Shown piece after piece: positions 5,476-25,914 of a DNA stretch of 27,608 bases. The first letter of the stretch is position 1; each line of letters begins with the position of its first letter. Both the position numbers and the translations under genes were made by a program. Source of the stretch: a virus; the IMG/VR virus record IMGVR_UViG_3300009082_000053, positions 1 through 27,608 of that record. One strand, written 5' to 3'. Under the pieces are notes generated by a model that made no database searches, was not told where the DNA came from, and worked only from the letters and a program-made list of their open reading frames with translations.

Positions 5476-5535
5476 AGACATATGGATATAGTACAATCGT
5501 TATTACAGGTATAATAACGGAGTATCCATATGTCT
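5476..5535 (+). promoter_or_regulatory. hairpin covering the HNH ribosome-binding site and start codon
   Basis: Two nested inverted repeats occur: AGACATATGGATA (5476-5488) pairs perfectly with TATCCATATGTCT (5523-5535), and CGTTATTA (5498-5505) pairs with TAATAACG (5512-5519) around a 6-nt loop. The ATG (5530-5532) is inside the outer stem and the ACGGAG site lies between the stems. RNA read in from upstream would hide the start. A GTATAAT box (5509-5515) sits in the inner hairpin; initiation from it would give a short leader lacking the left arm. Confidence 0.75.
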
Positions 5536-6288
5536 ATTCTAGAATTAGCTTTATCTCATCGTATATTATCTAAAGAGAAAATATTTAATAAACATGGAGT
5601 TTGGAAATTAACTCGATATACTTGCAAATGTCCAACAGAAAATTGTAATAATTCTGTGTCGGTAGAAAAAATAAAACATATAAATAATAAATGTCGACAT
5701 TGTGCCATGGTCAACAAACCTAAAGGTCATCCGCGATCATATATCATTCATACAACTGATATTAATAATACACACTTAGCTATAAGTAAAGCTAATCCTA
5801 AGCTTTTTATACGTGAAGAGAAGACTATAGATGGAAAGTCATATGTATCAGTTATGAAATGTAAAAATGACGGCTGTAATAATGAAATACGTTTACAGAA
5901 CACGGACATCGTTAGAATGTGTAAAAAGTGTTGTAACAAGAAGAAGCCGCATGAAGGTACTTTTAATAGAGCACAATGTACGCGGAATAAAACTAAATCA
6001 AACGGTATAACTATTAAGTGGTTAATATCATACGAAGAATTCGTTTCATTATGTAAAATCTCTAATTGTCACTACTGCAATGTAAAGTTAAATAGAAACA
6101 CACACCGCAGTGTAAATATAAATACTGCGGTGCTGTTAGATCGAGTAGATTCAAATAAAGACTACACTATAGATAATTGTGTACCGTGTTGCGTAAAATG
6201 CAATATCACAAAAAATGAACATCTCTCTTATGAAGAGATGATTTTAATAATGAAACATCGTGGATTATGGGTTGACAAAACTACGTGA
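5530..6288 (+). CDS. HNH homing-type endonuclease with zinc ribbons
   Basis: The 252-residue protein has an N-terminal Cys4 cluster (CKCPTENC with KCRHC, about residues 32-58), a second one (CKNDGC with MCKKC, 111-134), and a C-terminal HNH fold: CHYC (180-183), LLDRVDSNKDYTIDNCVPC (202-220) and CVKCNITKN. The first catalytic His position reads as Asp, as in many phage members of this class. Such free-standing enzymes cut DNA lacking the gene and spread by repair copying. The unit lies between 25-nt direct repeats and under a start-codon hairpin. Its last three codons and stop lie in the right repeat, which also encodes the end of the convergent 84-aa gene. Confidence 0.87.
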   Translation: MSILELALSHRILSKEKIFNKHGVWKLTRYTCKCPTENCNNSVSVEKIKHINNKCRHCAMVNKPKGHPRSYIIHTTDINNTHLAISKANPKLFIREEKTIDGKSYVSVMKCKNDGCNNEIRLQNTDIVRMCKKCCNKKKPHEGTFNRAQCTRNKTKSNGITIKWLISYEEFVSLCKISNCHYCNVKLNRNTHRSVNINTAVLLDRVDSNKDYTIDNCVPCCVKCNITKNEHLSYEEMILIMKHRGLWVDKTT

Positions 6289-6560: not shown

Positions 6561-6567
6561 ATTATAC
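6561..6567 (-). promoter_or_regulatory. GTATAAT -10-like box for the 84-aa gene
   Basis: The minus strand reads GGTATAAT overlapping the nrdJ stop codon, about 26 nt upstream of the 84-aa start. There is no clear -35. It belongs to a set of GTATAAT boxes just upstream of genes in this window. Confidence 0.4.
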
Positions 6568-8436
6568 CAGCTCGCAACGATCGCCTACGCATGCGTAACT
6601 TTTAGCACCCTCAGTATTATCTTCCATCTCATACTTACTAAGTTGTGTATAGTCTATTTTAGGCATTTTTTCTTCAATAATCTTGTATGTTTGCTCCGAT
6701 ATCTCTTCGTACGGAGCAAGCTCATATTTATGGTCAGAATAGTTTAAGAAGCTTACACCCTTTACTATCCCCCAATTATTGTATAACCACTGACCTACTG
6801 CTTCCCACTCATGTGTGCGGCAATACACCGTTAAACTACAGTTATGTTCACTCCATTTTTGCTGCATTAATTTATACAGTTTTAACTGATCGATTGCTGA
6901 CACTGCTTCGCGGGTAATGGCGTTACTGGCTGCTGCAACGGGAAACTCAACTACCCAAGTCTTAGCATCTGGACCTTGGCCAACTTCAGGAACAAACGTG
7001 AAACCTTGATAACACATCATTTTAAACAAAGGATCCATGCTTGAGATACGGTATCTACGGATATAGTGTTTAGCAAACCTAGGATGCATACCGCTCGCTG
7101 AGTTAGTTAGTTGACTTACCGTACCCGAAGGTTTTCCGCAAGTTATGGCCGCTGGGACATTGATATTTAATAAGGCAGCCATATCTACTGCAGTATCATA
7201 TGCCACACGTTTCATCTTGGTTAAATTTTCATCAGTTGTCAAATTTACGGCATCCATTATTCCAGTAAGCGATACCCCTAATAGTCTTTCTTCTCTGCAA
7301 TTATCGGCCCACTCTGATCTTAGATACGGAAAGTAAGTAAACGTTGACTGTATAGTTCCTATAATAGTAGCCAGCCTAACCTTCCTTGATAATGATATAA
7401 AGGTATCATTTTCTCTGATTACTACTTCCGAAAGATTACACAGTTCACGATTGCGCAACAGTATCTCGGCGCATGGATTTATTCCCTGTATAAATTGAGC
7501 TTTTCGTCTCTTAGGTGCGTGTCTACGAGCGGCTTCTAGATTAAAAAACCCTCTTTCGCCTGTGCCCGATTCCTCTAATGCTTTCCATTCTTTTTGAAAA
7601 TCTTCTAAGCTCGGTTTAGCATTATATACTACTGAGTTGTTGGCCATAGAGCGATATTCTGGAAAAGGCCAGTTCTTAGCATTGCGCATCTCTTCATCAT
7701 CTATATCTGATAAACTGATTTCGCTAGATCTACGAACGCCTCCAACAATTACTATCTCCGCGATCTTATTACAGATATCATGGCATTCTATGGGTTTAAG
7801 ACGTCGTCCTGGTGCGTTTCTAAACATCTCTCTAATGAAATCGTGTAAAGACATCAACGGTTCTGGACCAGATGCTCTGCCTCCCATAGTTTTCAATCTG
7901 GCACCTTTTGGTCTAACTCTTGAATAGTTAAAAGTTATATCTTTTCCGTCATACAGATTTCTCATCAGAGCTTTAACGGAGTCAGCCCAACCTTCGCGGT
8001 TGTCAGCCACTATATGAACATCGTTAGATGTAGAGATTAATTCTGGAACTACAGGAAGTTTAGATACTGATTCTTTGGTAACGTCAAAGCCAAAACCAGC
8101 ACCACACATCAACACGTACAAACACTCTGCAAAAGACTCTATCGAATCTATAGCAGAATAACTGCAATTATACATAGTTAGATTATCTGCTTCCGCTGCT
8201 TCGCCCGCAGCCCAAAGCGCACGCATACTGGGCATAACTTCGAAGTTCAATATGGCATTTTCTATATCTCTAAACATATAGTTTGGTACCACGTCACCGC
8301 GATGTTTGCGTAAGAAATCTACATATCGCTTTACAGTTTCCGGCCAAGTCTCCCGGCGATTTTCTTCTGGGATCCAGCGTGAATAAGATCGTACGTATAC
8401 GAATTCGGCGGCATCATTTTCAAAATAATTATGCAT
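6562..8436 (-). CDS. nrdJ: adenosylcobalamin-dependent (class II) ribonucleotide reductase
   Basis: The 624-residue enzyme would reduce ribonucleotides to deoxyribonucleotides using a B12-derived radical. Visible catalytic residues are C91 (MYNCSYS), the radical-site segment NPCAEI with C322 and E324, and C333 in ELCNLSE, 11 residues after C322, the spacing known for the monomeric Lactobacillus-type enzyme. The C-terminal redox pair is C616 and C621 (CVGDRC), again the CX4C of class II monomers. PSGTVSQL is also family-typical. It needs no separate NrdB and no oxygen, but depends on host cobalamin. TAGGA lies upstream of the ATG. It is divergent from thyX; together they supply dNTPs and dTMP. 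Confidence 0.93.
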   Translation of the reverse strand: MHNYFENDAAEFVYVRSYSRWIPEENRRETWPETVKRYVDFLRKHRGDVVPNYMFRDIENAILNFEVMPSMRALWAAGEAAEADNLTMYNCSYSAIDSIESFAECLYVLMCGAGFGFDVTKESVSKLPVVPELISTSNDVHIVADNREGWADSVKALMRNLYDGKDITFNYSRVRPKGARLKTMGGRASGPEPLMSLHDFIREMFRNAPGRRLKPIECHDICNKIAEIVIVGGVRRSSEISLSDIDDEEMRNAKNWPFPEYRSMANNSVVYNAKPSLEDFQKEWKALEESGTGERGFFNLEAARRHAPKRRKAQFIQGINPCAEILLRNRELCNLSEVVIRENDTFISLSRKVRLATIIGTIQSTFTYFPYLRSEWADNCREERLLGVSLTGIMDAVNLTTDENLTKMKRVAYDTAVDMAALLNINVPAAITCGKPSGTVSQLTNSASGMHPRFAKHYIRRYRISSMDPLFKMMCYQGFTFVPEVGQGPDAKTWVVEFPVAAASNAITREAVSAIDQLKLYKLMQQKWSEHNCSLTVYCRTHEWEAVGQWLYNNWGIVKGVSFLNYSDHKYELAPYEEISEQTYKIIEEKMPKIDYTQLSKYEMEDNTEGAKSYACVGDRCELV

Positions 8437-11389: not shown

Positions 11390-11391
11390 TT

Positions 11392-11581
11392 TACGCTGAT
11401 CCTCCCACAGCGTACCTCTGGTTAGGGTTTCACCCACCTCATGCCCCTAATTGTATAGGGAAGTAAGCTTGTACGGGTGCGTTGCAGGTTCAGAATAGTC
11501 CACCGTTACTATCTGAACATTCGTTAAAAGTAGACCAAATACGTGTTGACAGCTCGGAACAGACGAGCACCACAACTCACG
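11392..11581 (+). ncRNA. structured non-coding stretch upstream of the trypsin-like gene
   Basis: Five helices can be drawn by eye in a 204-nt gap. (1) TACGCTG/CAGCGTA, 11392-11414, with loop ATCCTCCCA. (2) GGT and GGGT pairing with ACCC and ACC, 11420-11438. (3) CCCTA/TAGGG, 11445-11460. (4) GTTCAGA-TAG/CTATCTGAAC with one bulge, 11488-11518. (5) CGTGTTG and GCTCG pairing with CGAGC and CAAC-ACG, 11542-11581. TTAGGG (11422-11427) can also pair with CCCTAA (11445-11450). The first loop contains CCTCC, complementary to a Shine-Dalgarno core. It could be a small RNA or the 5' leader of the protease gene. No known class recognised. Confidence 0.5.
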
Positions 11582-11593
11582 TTGGAAGCCAAA

Positions 11594-12364
11594 ATGTTCA
11601 AAATCCATTACGTCTTGGTAGCTTTGTTTAGTGTAGTACTATCCGTATATCTAACGCTCAAGCTAGTACAAGAGGAATATGGCCCACCTATACCATTCGT
11701 ATATGATAAAGTCTTAAACTCGGTTGTACGTCTTAGTGTACCTCGTGTCGGTAGCGGAACTGGTTTTTACATTGCTGCCAATGATCGCACTCTCATCATA
11801 ACTAATGGACATGTTTGTGATCTATCTTTAACCAATACACTGGTGGTAATACCAAATGAGTACGCTAGCAAAACCATTTATGCAAATATAATTGAAAAAT
11901 CCGATGCGTATGATCTATGCGCATTGGAGTTAGTCGATAAACCATACAACGACATAATGGCTATTAAATTAGCTGAAACATGGAAATATAGCGAACACAT
12001 CTATACAGCCGGTTATCCTCAAACTAATTACTTAACTGTGGTCGATGGTTATGTAACAGGTATTACAGAATTTTCGTTTGCCTATCCATTCAAAATAAGT
12101 AAAGATTGTGTCGGTAAGAAGTTCATGTTAATTACTCAAATAGGTGTTATGAATGACAATGGATCTCTTGAAGAGGTTTGCTACTTGCGTGGTGATATGC
12201 TAACTACAACTGCCAATTCAGCACCGGGTAGTTCTGGTTCTCCCGCTATAAACAGCGATTTACAAGTTATAGGTGTTGTTATGGCTGCGTACGGCAACAA
12301 TTCATACGCAGGAATTATTCCGGTAGAATATCTGCATGATTTTTTAGATAGCTTAAAGCTATAA
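11594..12364 (+). CDS. membrane-anchored trypsin-like (DegP/S1-type) serine protease
   Basis: The 256-residue protein starts with an N-terminal membrane anchor (about residues 6-24, YVLVALFSVVLSVYLTLKL), then a chymotrypsin-fold protease domain. The triad is visible: H73 in ITNGHVCD, D107 in SDAYDLCALE, and S214 in APGSSGSPA. No PDZ domain follows, so it resembles a single-domain trypsin-like peptidase rather than full DegP. The fold would probably lie in the periplasm. I start at the ATG with GGAAG 5 nt upstream; an in-frame GTG at 11543 lies inside a hairpin and adds 17 residues of non-family sequence. Both flanks are structured non-coding stretches. The target is unknown. Confidence 0.86.
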   Translation: MFKIHYVLVALFSVVLSVYLTLKLVQEEYGPPIPFVYDKVLNSVVRLSVPRVGSGTGFYIAANDRTLIITNGHVCDLSLTNTLVVIPNEYASKTIYANIIEKSDAYDLCALELVDKPYNDIMAIKLAETWKYSEHIYTAGYPQTNYLTVVDGYVTGITEFSFAYPFKISKDCVGKKFMLITQIGVMNDNGSLEEVCYLRGDMLTTTANSAPGSSGSPAINSDLQVIGVVMAAYGNNSYAGIIPVEYLHDFLDSLKL

Positions 12365-12538
12365 TACGTCGTTAAGACGTTGAACCTATAGAGGTAGTTT
12401 CGGGTGACTAGGGTGGGCGTGGTAAAGCCCGTAAGGATATGAGGACTTACCGTTCAAAGGAACTATCGAAAATTATAGCATAGCTTATCCAACGCTTAGT
12501 GTGGATTGACCGGGGGGAATAGACCCCTAGTCTTTTTT
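12365..12538 (+). ncRNA. riboswitch-like leader: pseudoknotted fold plus terminator/antiterminator
   Basis: Helices visible in this 185-nt gap are ACGTC/GACGT (12366-12380), GGTAGTTTC/GGAACTATC (12393-12401 with 12459-12467, two wobbles), GGGC/GCCC (12415-12430), GTAAG/CTTAC (12431-12450) and ATCCA/TGGAT (12487-12506). TGAAC (12381-12385) can pair with GTTCA (12452-12456), crossing the second helix and making a pseudoknot. GACTAGGG (12406-12413) is perfectly complementary to CCCTAGTC (12525-12532), the 3' arm of the terminator, so two exclusive folds exist. This is the architecture of a transcriptional attenuator or riboswitch for the genes from 12550. Purine, preQ1 and B12 consensus elements were not found. 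Confidence 0.55.
12508..12538 (+). terminator. intrinsic terminator/attenuator directly before the 12550 gene
   Basis: GACCGGGGG pairs with CCCCTAGTC (one mismatch, one wobble) around a short loop and is followed by six T (12533-12538). The GGAGG site of the next gene begins at 12539, so termination here would switch off the downstream genes. Confidence 0.7.
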
Positions 12539-12549
12539 GGAGGATTGAG

Positions 12550-12960
12550 ATGCAATACGTTGATAACCTGCTTAAATGTCAACCGGACGATATACTACCA
12601 GACTACACTCCCAATAAAATATTAGCAATAGTACCATTAAAAGAAAGAACACCATCAGGCATGGAAGTTGTTGTTGTTTGGGAAGACGGTCATTCATCAA
12701 CATACACAAAAGACGGTAGATGCGTATGTCACGGTAGACAGAACTTTGTGTATAAACCTCGCATAGTAAAACGGTTGAAGCCGCTGCATGTAATACTTGC
12801 GGAGAATACTTACTCTATTGAGAACGACTATGTACGTTTTGCGGATGGGCATATGGAACGAATGGAACCGTTATTTAAACAGCGAGGGAATGAGAAGAGC
12901 GAACTAGTACGCAGAGGTTGGTTCTATCTGGATTGCTTTTTCGATGAAGTGGAGGAATAA
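12550..12960 (+). CDS. hypothetical protein, tandem paralogue A (136 aa)
   Basis: GGAGG lies 6 nt before the ATG. The protein begins MQYVDNLLKCQPDDI and contains VVVVWEDG and VKRLKPLHVILAE; all three segments recur in the 13139 gene product, so these are paralogues. A compact beta-strand domain is likely. The C-terminus is DEVEE, whose codons GTGGAGGAA also form the ribosome-binding site of the next gene (TAATG overlap). Expression probably depends on the upstream attenuator-like leader. No outside family recognised. Confidence 0.75.
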   Translation: MQYVDNLLKCQPDDILPDYTPNKILAIVPLKERTPSGMEVVVVWEDGHSSTYTKDGRCVCHGRQNFVYKPRIVKRLKPLHVILAENTYSIENDYVRFADGHMERMEPLFKQRGNEKSELVRRGWFYLDCFFDEVEE

Positions 12961-13142
12961 TGAGTGACGCTCGAATTAGAGATTTCTTAAGAGAGCTTAG
13001 GGCATTGGAAGTTAAGTACGGGCTGGAAATAGATCACCACGGAGAGTACGTAGGATATCTTAGAGACACTACTGTATCTAACAACCATTACCCGGTAGTG
13101 GCAACCTTATATGAAGATTCTTGCGTAGAGGTTGAAGAATGA
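12960..13142 (+). CDS. hypothetical small protein between paralogues (60 aa)
   Basis: The start overlaps the stop of paralogue A (TAATG) and the end overlaps the start of paralogue B (ATGA). The protein begins with a charged helix (IRDFLRELRALEVKYGLE) followed by beta-like segments. It also ends in VEVEE, encoded by GAGGTTGAAGAA, which supplies a purine-rich site for the next gene. It is not clearly related to its neighbours. Function unknown. Confidence 0.68.
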   Translation: MSDARIRDFLRELRALEVKYGLEIDHHGEYVGYLRDTTVSNNHYPVVATLYEDSCVEVEE

Positions 13143-13540
13143 AATACGTAGATAACTTATTGGAATGTAAACCGGAAGAGATTCAGTGTTCTACATCGTT
13201 ATTAGAAATAGTTGCAATAGTTTCTACACCTGCTGCTCCATATGAATACAGCAAAGTAGTGATTGTTTGGGTAGATGGTTCAACTGGAAGGTTCTCATTG
13301 GATGGTAGGGCTTGTGATCGAGGCATACAATGGTTCATCTATCGCACAAAGAAAGTGAAGAGACTTAAGCCGCTGCATGTAATTCTTGCGGAGCATAAGT
13401 ATATCAACGACGGTGAGAACTATACCATTATTGATGGTAATAGCTTCAACCTATCCCGCATTGTTTATAACCAAGGGAGAACGATAAGTGAAACACACTA
13501 TCGATATCCCATTAGTTTTTACGAGGAGGTGGAGGAATGA
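13139..13540 (+). CDS. hypothetical protein, tandem paralogue B (133 aa)
   Basis: This is the second copy of the 12550-type protein: MKYVDNLLECKPEEI, VVIVWVDGS, KKVKRLKPLHVILAEHKY and YEEVEE align along the length with paralogue A. The KRLKPLHVILAE codons are nearly identical at the DNA level, while the region after it has diverged, as expected of an older tandem duplication. The GAGGAGGTGGAGGAATGA end overlaps the next start. Function unknown. Confidence 0.75.
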   Translation: MKYVDNLLECKPEEIQCSTSLLEIVAIVSTPAAPYEYSKVVIVWVDGSTGRFSLDGRACDRGIQWFIYRTKKVKRLKPLHVILAEHKYINDGENYTIIDGNSFNLSRIVYNQGRTISETHYRYPISFYEEVEE

Positions 13541-13650: not shown

Positions 13651-14907
13651 ATGGCAGTTTTTGAAACTTTAGAAGCACTAGAAGTTATTACTGGATCTAA
13701 AGATAAAGAAGCTATGCTAAAGGGTAATCTTTGGGATGATGAACTTACATATCTGCTAGACGCAGCCTTGAACTTTAATCGCAAGTTCTTTATCAAGAAA
13801 CTACCAGAACTTGCAGAACCCGTTCCTTGTATAGGCGGACACCTACCCCAATTTAAAAATCTATTATATAGATTGGAAACTAGACAAATTACAGGTGATG
13901 CTGCGAAGAACGAAGTTAAGGCAGTTCTCGACCAGTGTACTTTCTTAGAACGTAAGTGGTTTTCTAGAGTATTGCTAAAGGATCTGCGATGCGGATTTGG
14001 TATTTCGACATGTAATAAAGCTGGGTTTGCTATTCCTGAGTTCGAAGTAATGTTGGCGAAGGATGGCAAAGAGTGTAAAAACATAGACAAGATAATTACT
14101 TCTGGGGTTTGGGTAAGTCGAAAATATGATGGTTATCGTTGCTTGGCAATAGTTAAGCATGGTGAAGCGACCTTATATAGTAGGAATGGAAAAGAGTATG
14201 TTAACTTCCCGACGATTCAGAAAGCTCTTAAGGCGTCGTGCAATGCTGAGACAACGTACATTTTCGATGGAGAGATATTATCCGATGACTTTCAATCTAT
14301 ACAGCGGTCCGCTTTTGCTTCAAAAAGGGGCACAACGGTCGGTGATGTTATTTACCGTATCTTCGATTGTATTGATTCTGTAGAGTGGGAAAAACAAAGC
14401 TTTAAACAACTGCCATCTGAACGATTTGTTAATCTTACTAAGTTTTTTACGTACAATAACATTGATAGCTCGTTATCTATGGTTGAACACGTTTGGTCTA
14501 CAAACAAAGAAGAGATATTACAACTAGAAAGAGATTATATAGTTGAGGGATATGAAGGTGCCATGCTACTGCCGGAGATACCCTATTATGTAGGTCGCAA
14601 GTCTAATGCAATGCTGAAGTTTAAAACCATGGTCACCATGGACTGCGAGGTAGTAGGTGTATATCAAGGAACCGGAAAATACGCTGGATCATTGGGAGGT
14701 TTACACCTTATACAGGAAAATGGATTACGGTGCGACGTCGGATCCGGCTTCGATGATACAGAACGCCGTTCAATCTTTAATGCTCCTGCTGCGGTATGTG
14801 GTCGTATCGCGGAAATTAAGTATCAAAACCTCAGCGATGATGGAATTTTACGTTTTCCAATATTCTTACGCTGGAGAGATAGTGGCAAAGATAGTGGAAA
14901 GATATAA
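13651..14907 (+). CDS. ATP-dependent DNA ligase
   Basis: The 418-residue protein shows the nucleotidyltransferase motifs in order: motif I KYDGYR with the adenylated lysine K158, SRNGKEY (177-183, motif Ia), FDGEIL (motif III), VEGYEGAML (motif IV) and MLKFK (motif V), then an OB-fold region ending in IAEIKYQNLSDDG and FPIFLRWR. The N-terminal 140 residues are a helical DNA-binding-like domain. It seals nicks using ATP. The ATG abuts the stop of the membrane peptide, and TTACGGTGG upstream is the likely site. It pairs functionally with the 5'-3' exonuclease and perhaps with the PNKP-like phosphatase at 18253. Confidence 0.93.
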   Translation: MAVFETLEALEVITGSKDKEAMLKGNLWDDELTYLLDAALNFNRKFFIKKLPELAEPVPCIGGHLPQFKNLLYRLETRQITGDAAKNEVKAVLDQCTFLERKWFSRVLLKDLRCGFGISTCNKAGFAIPEFEVMLAKDGKECKNIDKIITSGVWVSRKYDGYRCLAIVKHGEATLYSRNGKEYVNFPTIQKALKASCNAETTYIFDGEILSDDFQSIQRSAFASKRGTTVGDVIYRIFDCIDSVEWEKQSFKQLPSERFVNLTKFFTYNNIDSSLSMVEHVWSTNKEEILQLERDYIVEGYEGAMLLPEIPYYVGRKSNAMLKFKTMVTMDCEVVGVYQGTGKYAGSLGGLHLIQENGLRCDVGSGFDDTERRSIFNAPAAVCGRIAEIKYQNLSDDGILRFPIFLRWRDSGKDSGKI

Positions 14908-19044: not shown

Positions 19045-19066
19045 GGCCACCTAATGGTGGCCTTTT
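19045..19066 (+). terminator. rho-independent terminator
   Basis: GGCCACC pairs perfectly with GGTGGCC around TAAT and is followed by TTTT. It closes the transcript that includes the AAA+ and phosphatase genes. The next gene starts 17 nt later. Confidence 0.8.
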
Positions 19067-25642: not shown

Positions 25643-25680
25643 GCCGATCGAGCCAAAACGCTCGATCGGCATTTAACTTT
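25643..25680 (+). terminator. perfect 11-bp hairpin, probable terminator
   Basis: GCCGATCGAGC (25643-25653) pairs perfectly with GCTCGATCGGC (25660-25670) around CAAAAC, followed by ATTTAACTTT. The U tract is interrupted, so termination may be partial. It ends the transglycosylase-HNH transcript. Confidence 0.7.
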
Positions 25681-25689
25681 GAGATACAT

Positions 25690-25914
25690 ATGAAAAGCTT
25701 CAATACAATGTTTAGATTTGCTATGATGGACTTTGGATTTTGTACATATGTTGATTTTAGCTGCGACGAGTGTCCATGTCCACATTGTTACGAAGTACAA
25801 CCTTCTGATTTTTTTCGCATGGCTAAATTAGCAACTAGCAATAACTATTCCGAATCACAATCGCACTACCTGTATCACTTATATGCGATTATCGACCGTA
25901 TGGAAATCAAATGA
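25690..25914 (+). CDS. hypothetical cysteine-rich protein (74 aa)
   Basis: I start at the ATG after the terminator because an in-frame start at 25630 would place the hairpin inside the gene. The protein has a tight cluster CDECPCPHC (residues about 25-33) likely to bind zinc or iron, then a helical C-terminus. The ribosome-binding site is weak (GAGA). It overlaps the next gene by ATGA. No family recognised. Confidence 0.58.
   Translation: MKSFNTMFRFAMMDFGFCTYVDFSCDECPCPHCYEVQPSDFFRMAKLATSNNYSESQSHYLYHLYAIIDRMEIK

Follow-up and report, generated by a model that had tools for sequence, protein, structure and literature searches.

A putative promoter-proximal terminator in the leader of a small phage operon, and the statistically ordinary riboswitch-like folds around it

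Processive antitermination at promoter-proximal terminators is an established phage strategy. At lambda pR'-tR', where read-through is Q-dependent and a short leader RNA is made, a promoter is followed by a leader of less than 200 nt, an intrinsic terminator and genes that need read-through. Strand-exchange riboswitches, e.g. of the xpt-type (OFF) and the ZTP-type, combine a leader, a terminator before the gene and a stretch complementary to one arm of this terminator, and switches of this kind normally sequester the early (5') arm. AlpA is a cellular example of processive antitermination (PMC9371919). Riboswitches are also carried by phages, as the marine phages Melnitz and Mosig harbor glutamine (glnA) riboswitches (PMC9004378), and HDV-like (theta) ribozymes of phages have been reported as well (PMC10879173).

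The window, i.e. the whole stretch of DNA that was analyzed, is a 27.6-kb virus record of an unclassified phage. A 185 nt intergenic leader (12365-12549; plus strand, as all features below unless indicated) is located between a gene encoding a trypsin-like serine protease on its 5' side (11594-12364, likely start ATG at 11594, open frame from 11543) and three small genes, all lacking a known family, on its 3' side. With 46% G+C compared to 38% in the window, its composition is unusual for a plain spacer. The first gene 3' of the terminator described below (gene 12550; 12550-12960, 136 aa) and the second gene of the unit (gene 12960; 12960-13142, 60 aa) are without known family, while the product of the third (gene 13139; 13139-13540, 133 aa) is 40% identical to the 12550 product, the first and third genes being paralogues. 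The AlphaFold model of the 12550 product had a mean pLDDT of 42 and was set aside. Over a stretch of 44 nt (VKRLKPLHVILAE; 12765-12808 and 13354-13397) the DNA of these paralogues is 82% identical, against 40% overall identity of the proteins, which looks as if either recent exchange or strong constraint had acted here. A gene for an ATP-dependent DNA ligase (13651-14907) follows 110 nt past 13540 and perhaps belongs to the 12550-13540 operon.

Like lambda pR'-tR', the locus comprises a promoter-like site, a leader of less than 200 nt, an intrinsic terminator and genes that would need read-through. It differs in that the terminator sits directly at the Shine-Dalgarno (SD) sequence, and neither an antitermination factor nor a binding element for one was identified here. 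With the xpt- and ZTP-type riboswitches it has in common the leader, the terminator before the gene and a stretch complementary to a terminator arm; however, the complement here targets the 3' arm beside the U-tract, the folding is at chance level, the leader has no Rfam match and no homologous aptamer was found for it. The glnA riboswitches of Melnitz and Mosig belong to a known class, whereas the leader matches none. The original prediction regarded a phage-borne switch in control of a paralogue-ligase operon as new; since phage riboswitches are already known, a confirmed switch would be new as a class, but not as a kind. HDV-like ribozymes are pseudoknotted RNAs with the strand order P1 P2 P3 P3' P1' P4 P4' P2'. 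In this respect they resemble the fold proposed for the leader, whose strand order is different (A B C C' D D' A' B'), and because of this mismatch an HDV-like ribozyme was rejected; an Rfam match is also lacking.

An intrinsic terminator that touches the SD sequence of gene 12550 had been predicted at 12508-12538, and it was found as described. A G+C-rich hairpin (12508-12532, -11.9 kcal/mol) composed of GAC-C-GGGGG-loop-CCCCU-A-GUC is followed directly by a U-rich tract (T6, 12533-12538). On either strand of the window this is the sole hairpin of -11 kcal/mol or lower with a T6 run, and 0.11 are expected per window (mean of 501 shuffled windows). For every RNA start tried, the terminator helix was predicted with a probability of 0.58-0.91 after completion of the 3' arm. 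Judged from its sequence, the predicted terminator is real and above chance. The T-run is directly adjoined by the SD sequence GGAGG (12539-12543), and 11 nt lie between the end of the T-run and ATG 12550. Among 80 other phage loci and the window, an SD-led start was no more than 33 nt away in 11 cases out of 212 terminator-like hairpins, so a terminator at an SD sequence is infrequent but has precedents.

At the 5' edge of the leader, the promoter-like -10 hexamer TATAAT (12360-12365) overlaps the stop codon of the upstream gene. Starting from this hexamer, RNA synthesis is predicted to begin at about 12372, which would yield a leader RNA of approximately 165-170 nt up to 12538. In the region from -80 to -11 of genes that are preceded by a gap, TATAAT was observed nine times compared to 2.7 times in shuffles (none of 500 shuffles equaled this number), and because of this enrichment it is probably the -10 element of the phage, defining a promoter type with no evident -35 box; the hexamer at 12360-12365, being 190 nt from gene 12550, is outside the nine counted sites. 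We infer a promoter function for it, yet it could be a chance occurrence, as no -35 box was seen and it overlaps the upstream stop codon. Elsewhere in the window, TATAAT without a clear -35 box was noted 19-76 nt before gap-preceded genes (3603, 5510, 8592, 8641, 11080, 16229, 20349 and 20360). Between the terminator and ATG 12550, no -10-like hexamer was found either by eye (at least 4/6 matches to TATAAT in a usable place) or by a pattern scan, and a promoter 3' of the terminator was rejected on these grounds. Nor is there a TATAAT-like hexamer 19-76 nt before ATG 12550, the distance at which the other promoter-like sites of the phage are located.

The explanation that we favor, with slightly better than even confidence, is a promoter-proximal terminator whose read-through would set the expression of the small operon. 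In this model, 12365-12549 would be the leader preceding an operon that spans 12550-13540 and perhaps extends to the end of the ligase gene. Transcripts would begin near 12372 at a TATAAT-type phage promoter or arrive from upstream, and most of them would halt at the terminator at 12508-12538. The output of the operon would then equal the share of polymerases that pass this terminator. Termination would be partial; an antitermination factor from the phage or its host might control it, or read-through might be kept at a fixed level. Expression by read-through is suggested because the terminator abuts the site at which ribosomes would bind for gene 12550, and since a -10-like hexamer is missing 3' of the terminator, read-through is also the simplest way to express this gene, whose transcription probably requires passage of the terminator. 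The attenuator-like position put forward in the original prediction is supported: the terminator adjoins the SD sequence, a promoter-like TATAAT lies where the leader begins, and no -10-like hexamer follows the terminator.

Processive antitermination as at lambda pR'-tR' (Q-like) is a specific form of the read-through explanation and is considered unlikely, although with an appreciable chance of being correct. Here, a short leader RNA would be made constantly, and read-through would occur once the polymerase had been modified at or near the promoter. The locus has the same anatomy, consisting of a promoter-like site, ~165 nt, an intrinsic terminator and genes. Of the Q-type arrangement, a promoter and then a terminator within a few hundred bases, the terminator is present, while the promoter is represented by TATAAT alone, without a -35 box. 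Elements resembling nut, qut or put were not defined, and the scanned proteins, which represent part of the proteins of the window, yielded no candidate similar to Q, N or AlpA; as the contig is a 27.6-kb fragment, the absence of a gene for an antitermination factor means little.

Small-RNA genes are carried by phage genomes, and the region from ~12372 to 12538 could be such a gene with its own promoter and terminator, in which case gene 12550 would be expressed by leakage only. TATAAT, a length of ~166 nt and a strong terminator are in line with this. However, no conserved copy was found, the fold is no more stable than those of shuffles, and the contact of the terminator with the SD sequence of the next gene is more natural for a leader, which makes a small-RNA gene improbable.

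Still less credit is given to the riboswitch or protein-sensing attenuator that had been proposed for the leader. In this reading, a ligand-bound pseudoknot of P1, P2 and P3 would permit the terminator to form, while in the unbound state GACTAGGG (12406-12413) would pair with the 3' arm and transcription would continue. All bases and pairings named in the original prediction are present at their positions. Helix P1 (12393-12401/12459-12467) can form 9 bp including G-U and has an ensemble probability of ~0.38 in 12365-12538, possible hairpin P2 (12415-12430, pairing 12415-12418/12427-12430) has a probability of 0.24, and possible hairpin P3 (12431-12450, pairing 12431-12435/12446-12450) one of 0.30. 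A competitor of P3, a hairpin at 12421-12451, reaches 0.79 in the RNA 12372-12467. The crossing pair, predicted as 12381-12385/12452-12456, is even 1 bp longer and comprises 6 bp (12380-12385 TTGAAC/12452-12457 GTTCAA), with a stacking energy of about -8.0 kcal/mol as computed without a pseudoknot energy model. The pseudoknot-capable fold can thus be drawn, but it is neither the optimum nor beyond chance. The named nested fold has -19.1 kcal/mol versus an optimum of -21.4 kcal/mol for the same stretch (a cost of 2.3 kcal/mol), and the combination of P1, the crossing pair and the inner fold (-34.1 kcal/mol) was equaled or bettered in 12% of the dinucleotide shuffles and reached by 3.9% of the other windows of the same genome. 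Compared to shuffles, the minimum free energy of the whole leader has a z of -0.9 and that of the stretch 12380-12470 a z of -0.5. The term riboswitch-like is hence not supported by these values.

The complementarity between GACTAGGG and the terminator 3' arm CCCTAGTC (12525-12532) is exact over 8 bp, as claimed, and both octamers occur once in the window. A perfect 8 nt complement to the 3' arm was obtained in 2.7% of the shuffles, and in 11% if G-U is allowed; the duplex energy has a p of 0.06 versus shuffles. In favor of a switch, the enclosing P1 and the antiterminator helix are not both nestable, and the forced terminator and antiterminator ensembles have -51.4 and -50.1 kcal/mol, respectively, a gap of ~1.4 kcal/mol. 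The octamer match (p 0.027) and the topology (p 0.12) would jointly be rarer than either one, given trust in this exact post-hoc combination. Pairing of GACTAGGG was said to be exclusive: it does rule out the terminator via common bases, but in the named fold GACTAGGG is part of a joining strand without a pairing partner, so that the 'aptamer' is excluded by topology only. When the terminator was kept and the leader was shuffled, pairing of the 3' arm with the leader amounted to 0.159 for the real sequence versus 0.152 for shuffles and the probability of the terminator to 0.75 versus 0.72, so that exclusive folds controlling the terminator do not go beyond chance. Moreover, the predicted GACTAGGG/CCCTAGTC pairing has a probability of ~0 for RNA ends up to 12530, and that of the antiterminator stays at ~0 until the RNA end reaches 12532; later it is at most 0.12. 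As the proposed 8-bp helix involves the 3' arm, which is transcribed late, and extends to the U-tract, it would form too late and would itself leave a helix at the termination point, i.e. it would occupy the site where terminator hairpins act. Terminator hairpins fold very rapidly inside the exit channel (PMC10907184). The exclusive antiterminator of the original prediction is therefore not supported.

If the leader has any antiterminator, a better and more conventional candidate appears to be a long imperfect helix (12399-12420/12492-12514), which includes the GACTAGGG strand and traps the 5' arm ahead of 3' arm synthesis. In the folding model it dominates at RNA ends 12520-12524 with a probability of 0.41-0.78; sequestration of the 5' arm by the leader is 0.61 for the real sequence versus 0.62 for shuffles. 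Rather than a ligand-sensing switch, the pseudoknot and the 8-bp pairing most likely represent folds that occur incidentally in a G-rich leader, and the riboswitch and exclusive-pairing parts of the prediction are unproven, statistically ordinary and not supported. An orphan class of phage cis-regulatory RNA, in which a pseudoknotted three-helix aptamer would act through the joining strand 12406-12413 to decide on terminator formation before the paralogue operon, has an even smaller chance of being correct. Least probable of all is translation-coupled attenuation, in which terminator formation would depend on ribosomes translating one short leader ORF or two: a possible GTG ORF of 12 codons (12404-12442, VTRVGVVKPVRI) is led by the SD sequence AGAGG, spans GACTAGGG with its first codons and overlaps by ATGA the start of a second possible ORF (12439-12483, ATG, MRTYRSKELSKIIA, weak SD) that stops 25 nt 5' of the terminator, and terminators are known to be weakened by a ribosome translating nearby (PMC4824070), but SD-led ORFs of at least 10 codons occur in 30% of shuffles, and no homologues that would show coding constraint were found.

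Searches for relatives of the leader gave no support for a known RNA class. A search against Rfam, as suggested in the original prediction, returned no match at the gathering threshold and at E ≤ 10 solely an unrelated CRISPR repeat model (E 6.5), and a known class was rejected on this basis. No DNA match was obtained in phages or plasmids, three phage matches at E 7 being chance. In IMG/VR, no close relatives were identified via peptide patterns from the 12550 product, the paralogue alignment, the protease, the ligase and the ribonucleotide reductase; the only match to the pattern KPLHVILAE (L002) is in an unrelated frame and was rejected. The core DNA pattern GTGACTAGGG...GTTCAAAGG had no match in viral contigs, and two bacterial matches carried neither P1 nor a terminator and were dismissed. 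With a single-sequence covariance model, no second copy was detected in the window and no copy in 83 loci, and the best match in 398 bacterial genomes (E 0.002 per genome), antisense in a polysaccharide-deacetylase-like frame, was taken as chance. Neither a homologue nor a second copy was thus found in the sequences searched; since records very near to the window may be missing from these sets, absent relatives are not proof of uniqueness.

The reductase used in these searches is a class II (B12-dependent) ribonucleotide reductase (6562-8436, minus strand) that is closest (49%) to those of marine Roseobacter phages. Its search gave 80 loci at 45-49%, in which the shared neighbors were ThyX or exonuclease homologues only and the leader was not present, and no further synteny of the reductase region with the loci found was seen. 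Nearby, a 28 nt direct repeat (5441-5468/6277-6304, 96%) flanks an HNH-endonuclease-like gene (5530-6288), an arrangement that resembles an insertion with target duplication.

Further structured sites were observed in the window. A second long intergenic leader (11390-11593) precedes the protease gene, has 46% G+C over 11390-11542 and carries TAGAAT at its 5' edge. Its fold is more stable than those of shuffles (z -2.2, 3/200). It neither matches Rfam nor resembles the leader at 12365, and of the two leaders it is the stronger candidate for a structured RNA. At 19045-19066, a perfect hairpin (GGCCACC-TAAT-GGTGGCC) followed by TTTT lies ~16 nt before ATG 19083 and is a second hairpin directly 5' of an SD sequence, with TATAAA slightly upstream. 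Another perfect hairpin of 11 bp (GCCGATCGAGC-CAAAAC-GCTCGATCGGC, 25643-25670) is located shortly 5' of a possible ATG at 25690.

In a G-rich leader without homologues, a drawable pseudoknot and one exact octamer complement are weak evidence for a switch; if the switch were true, it would constitute a new phage RNA class. With respect to the favored read-through at a promoter-proximal terminator, this terminator, if conditional, would provide the phage with a simple control point for an operon that encodes proteins without known family and perhaps a DNA ligase.
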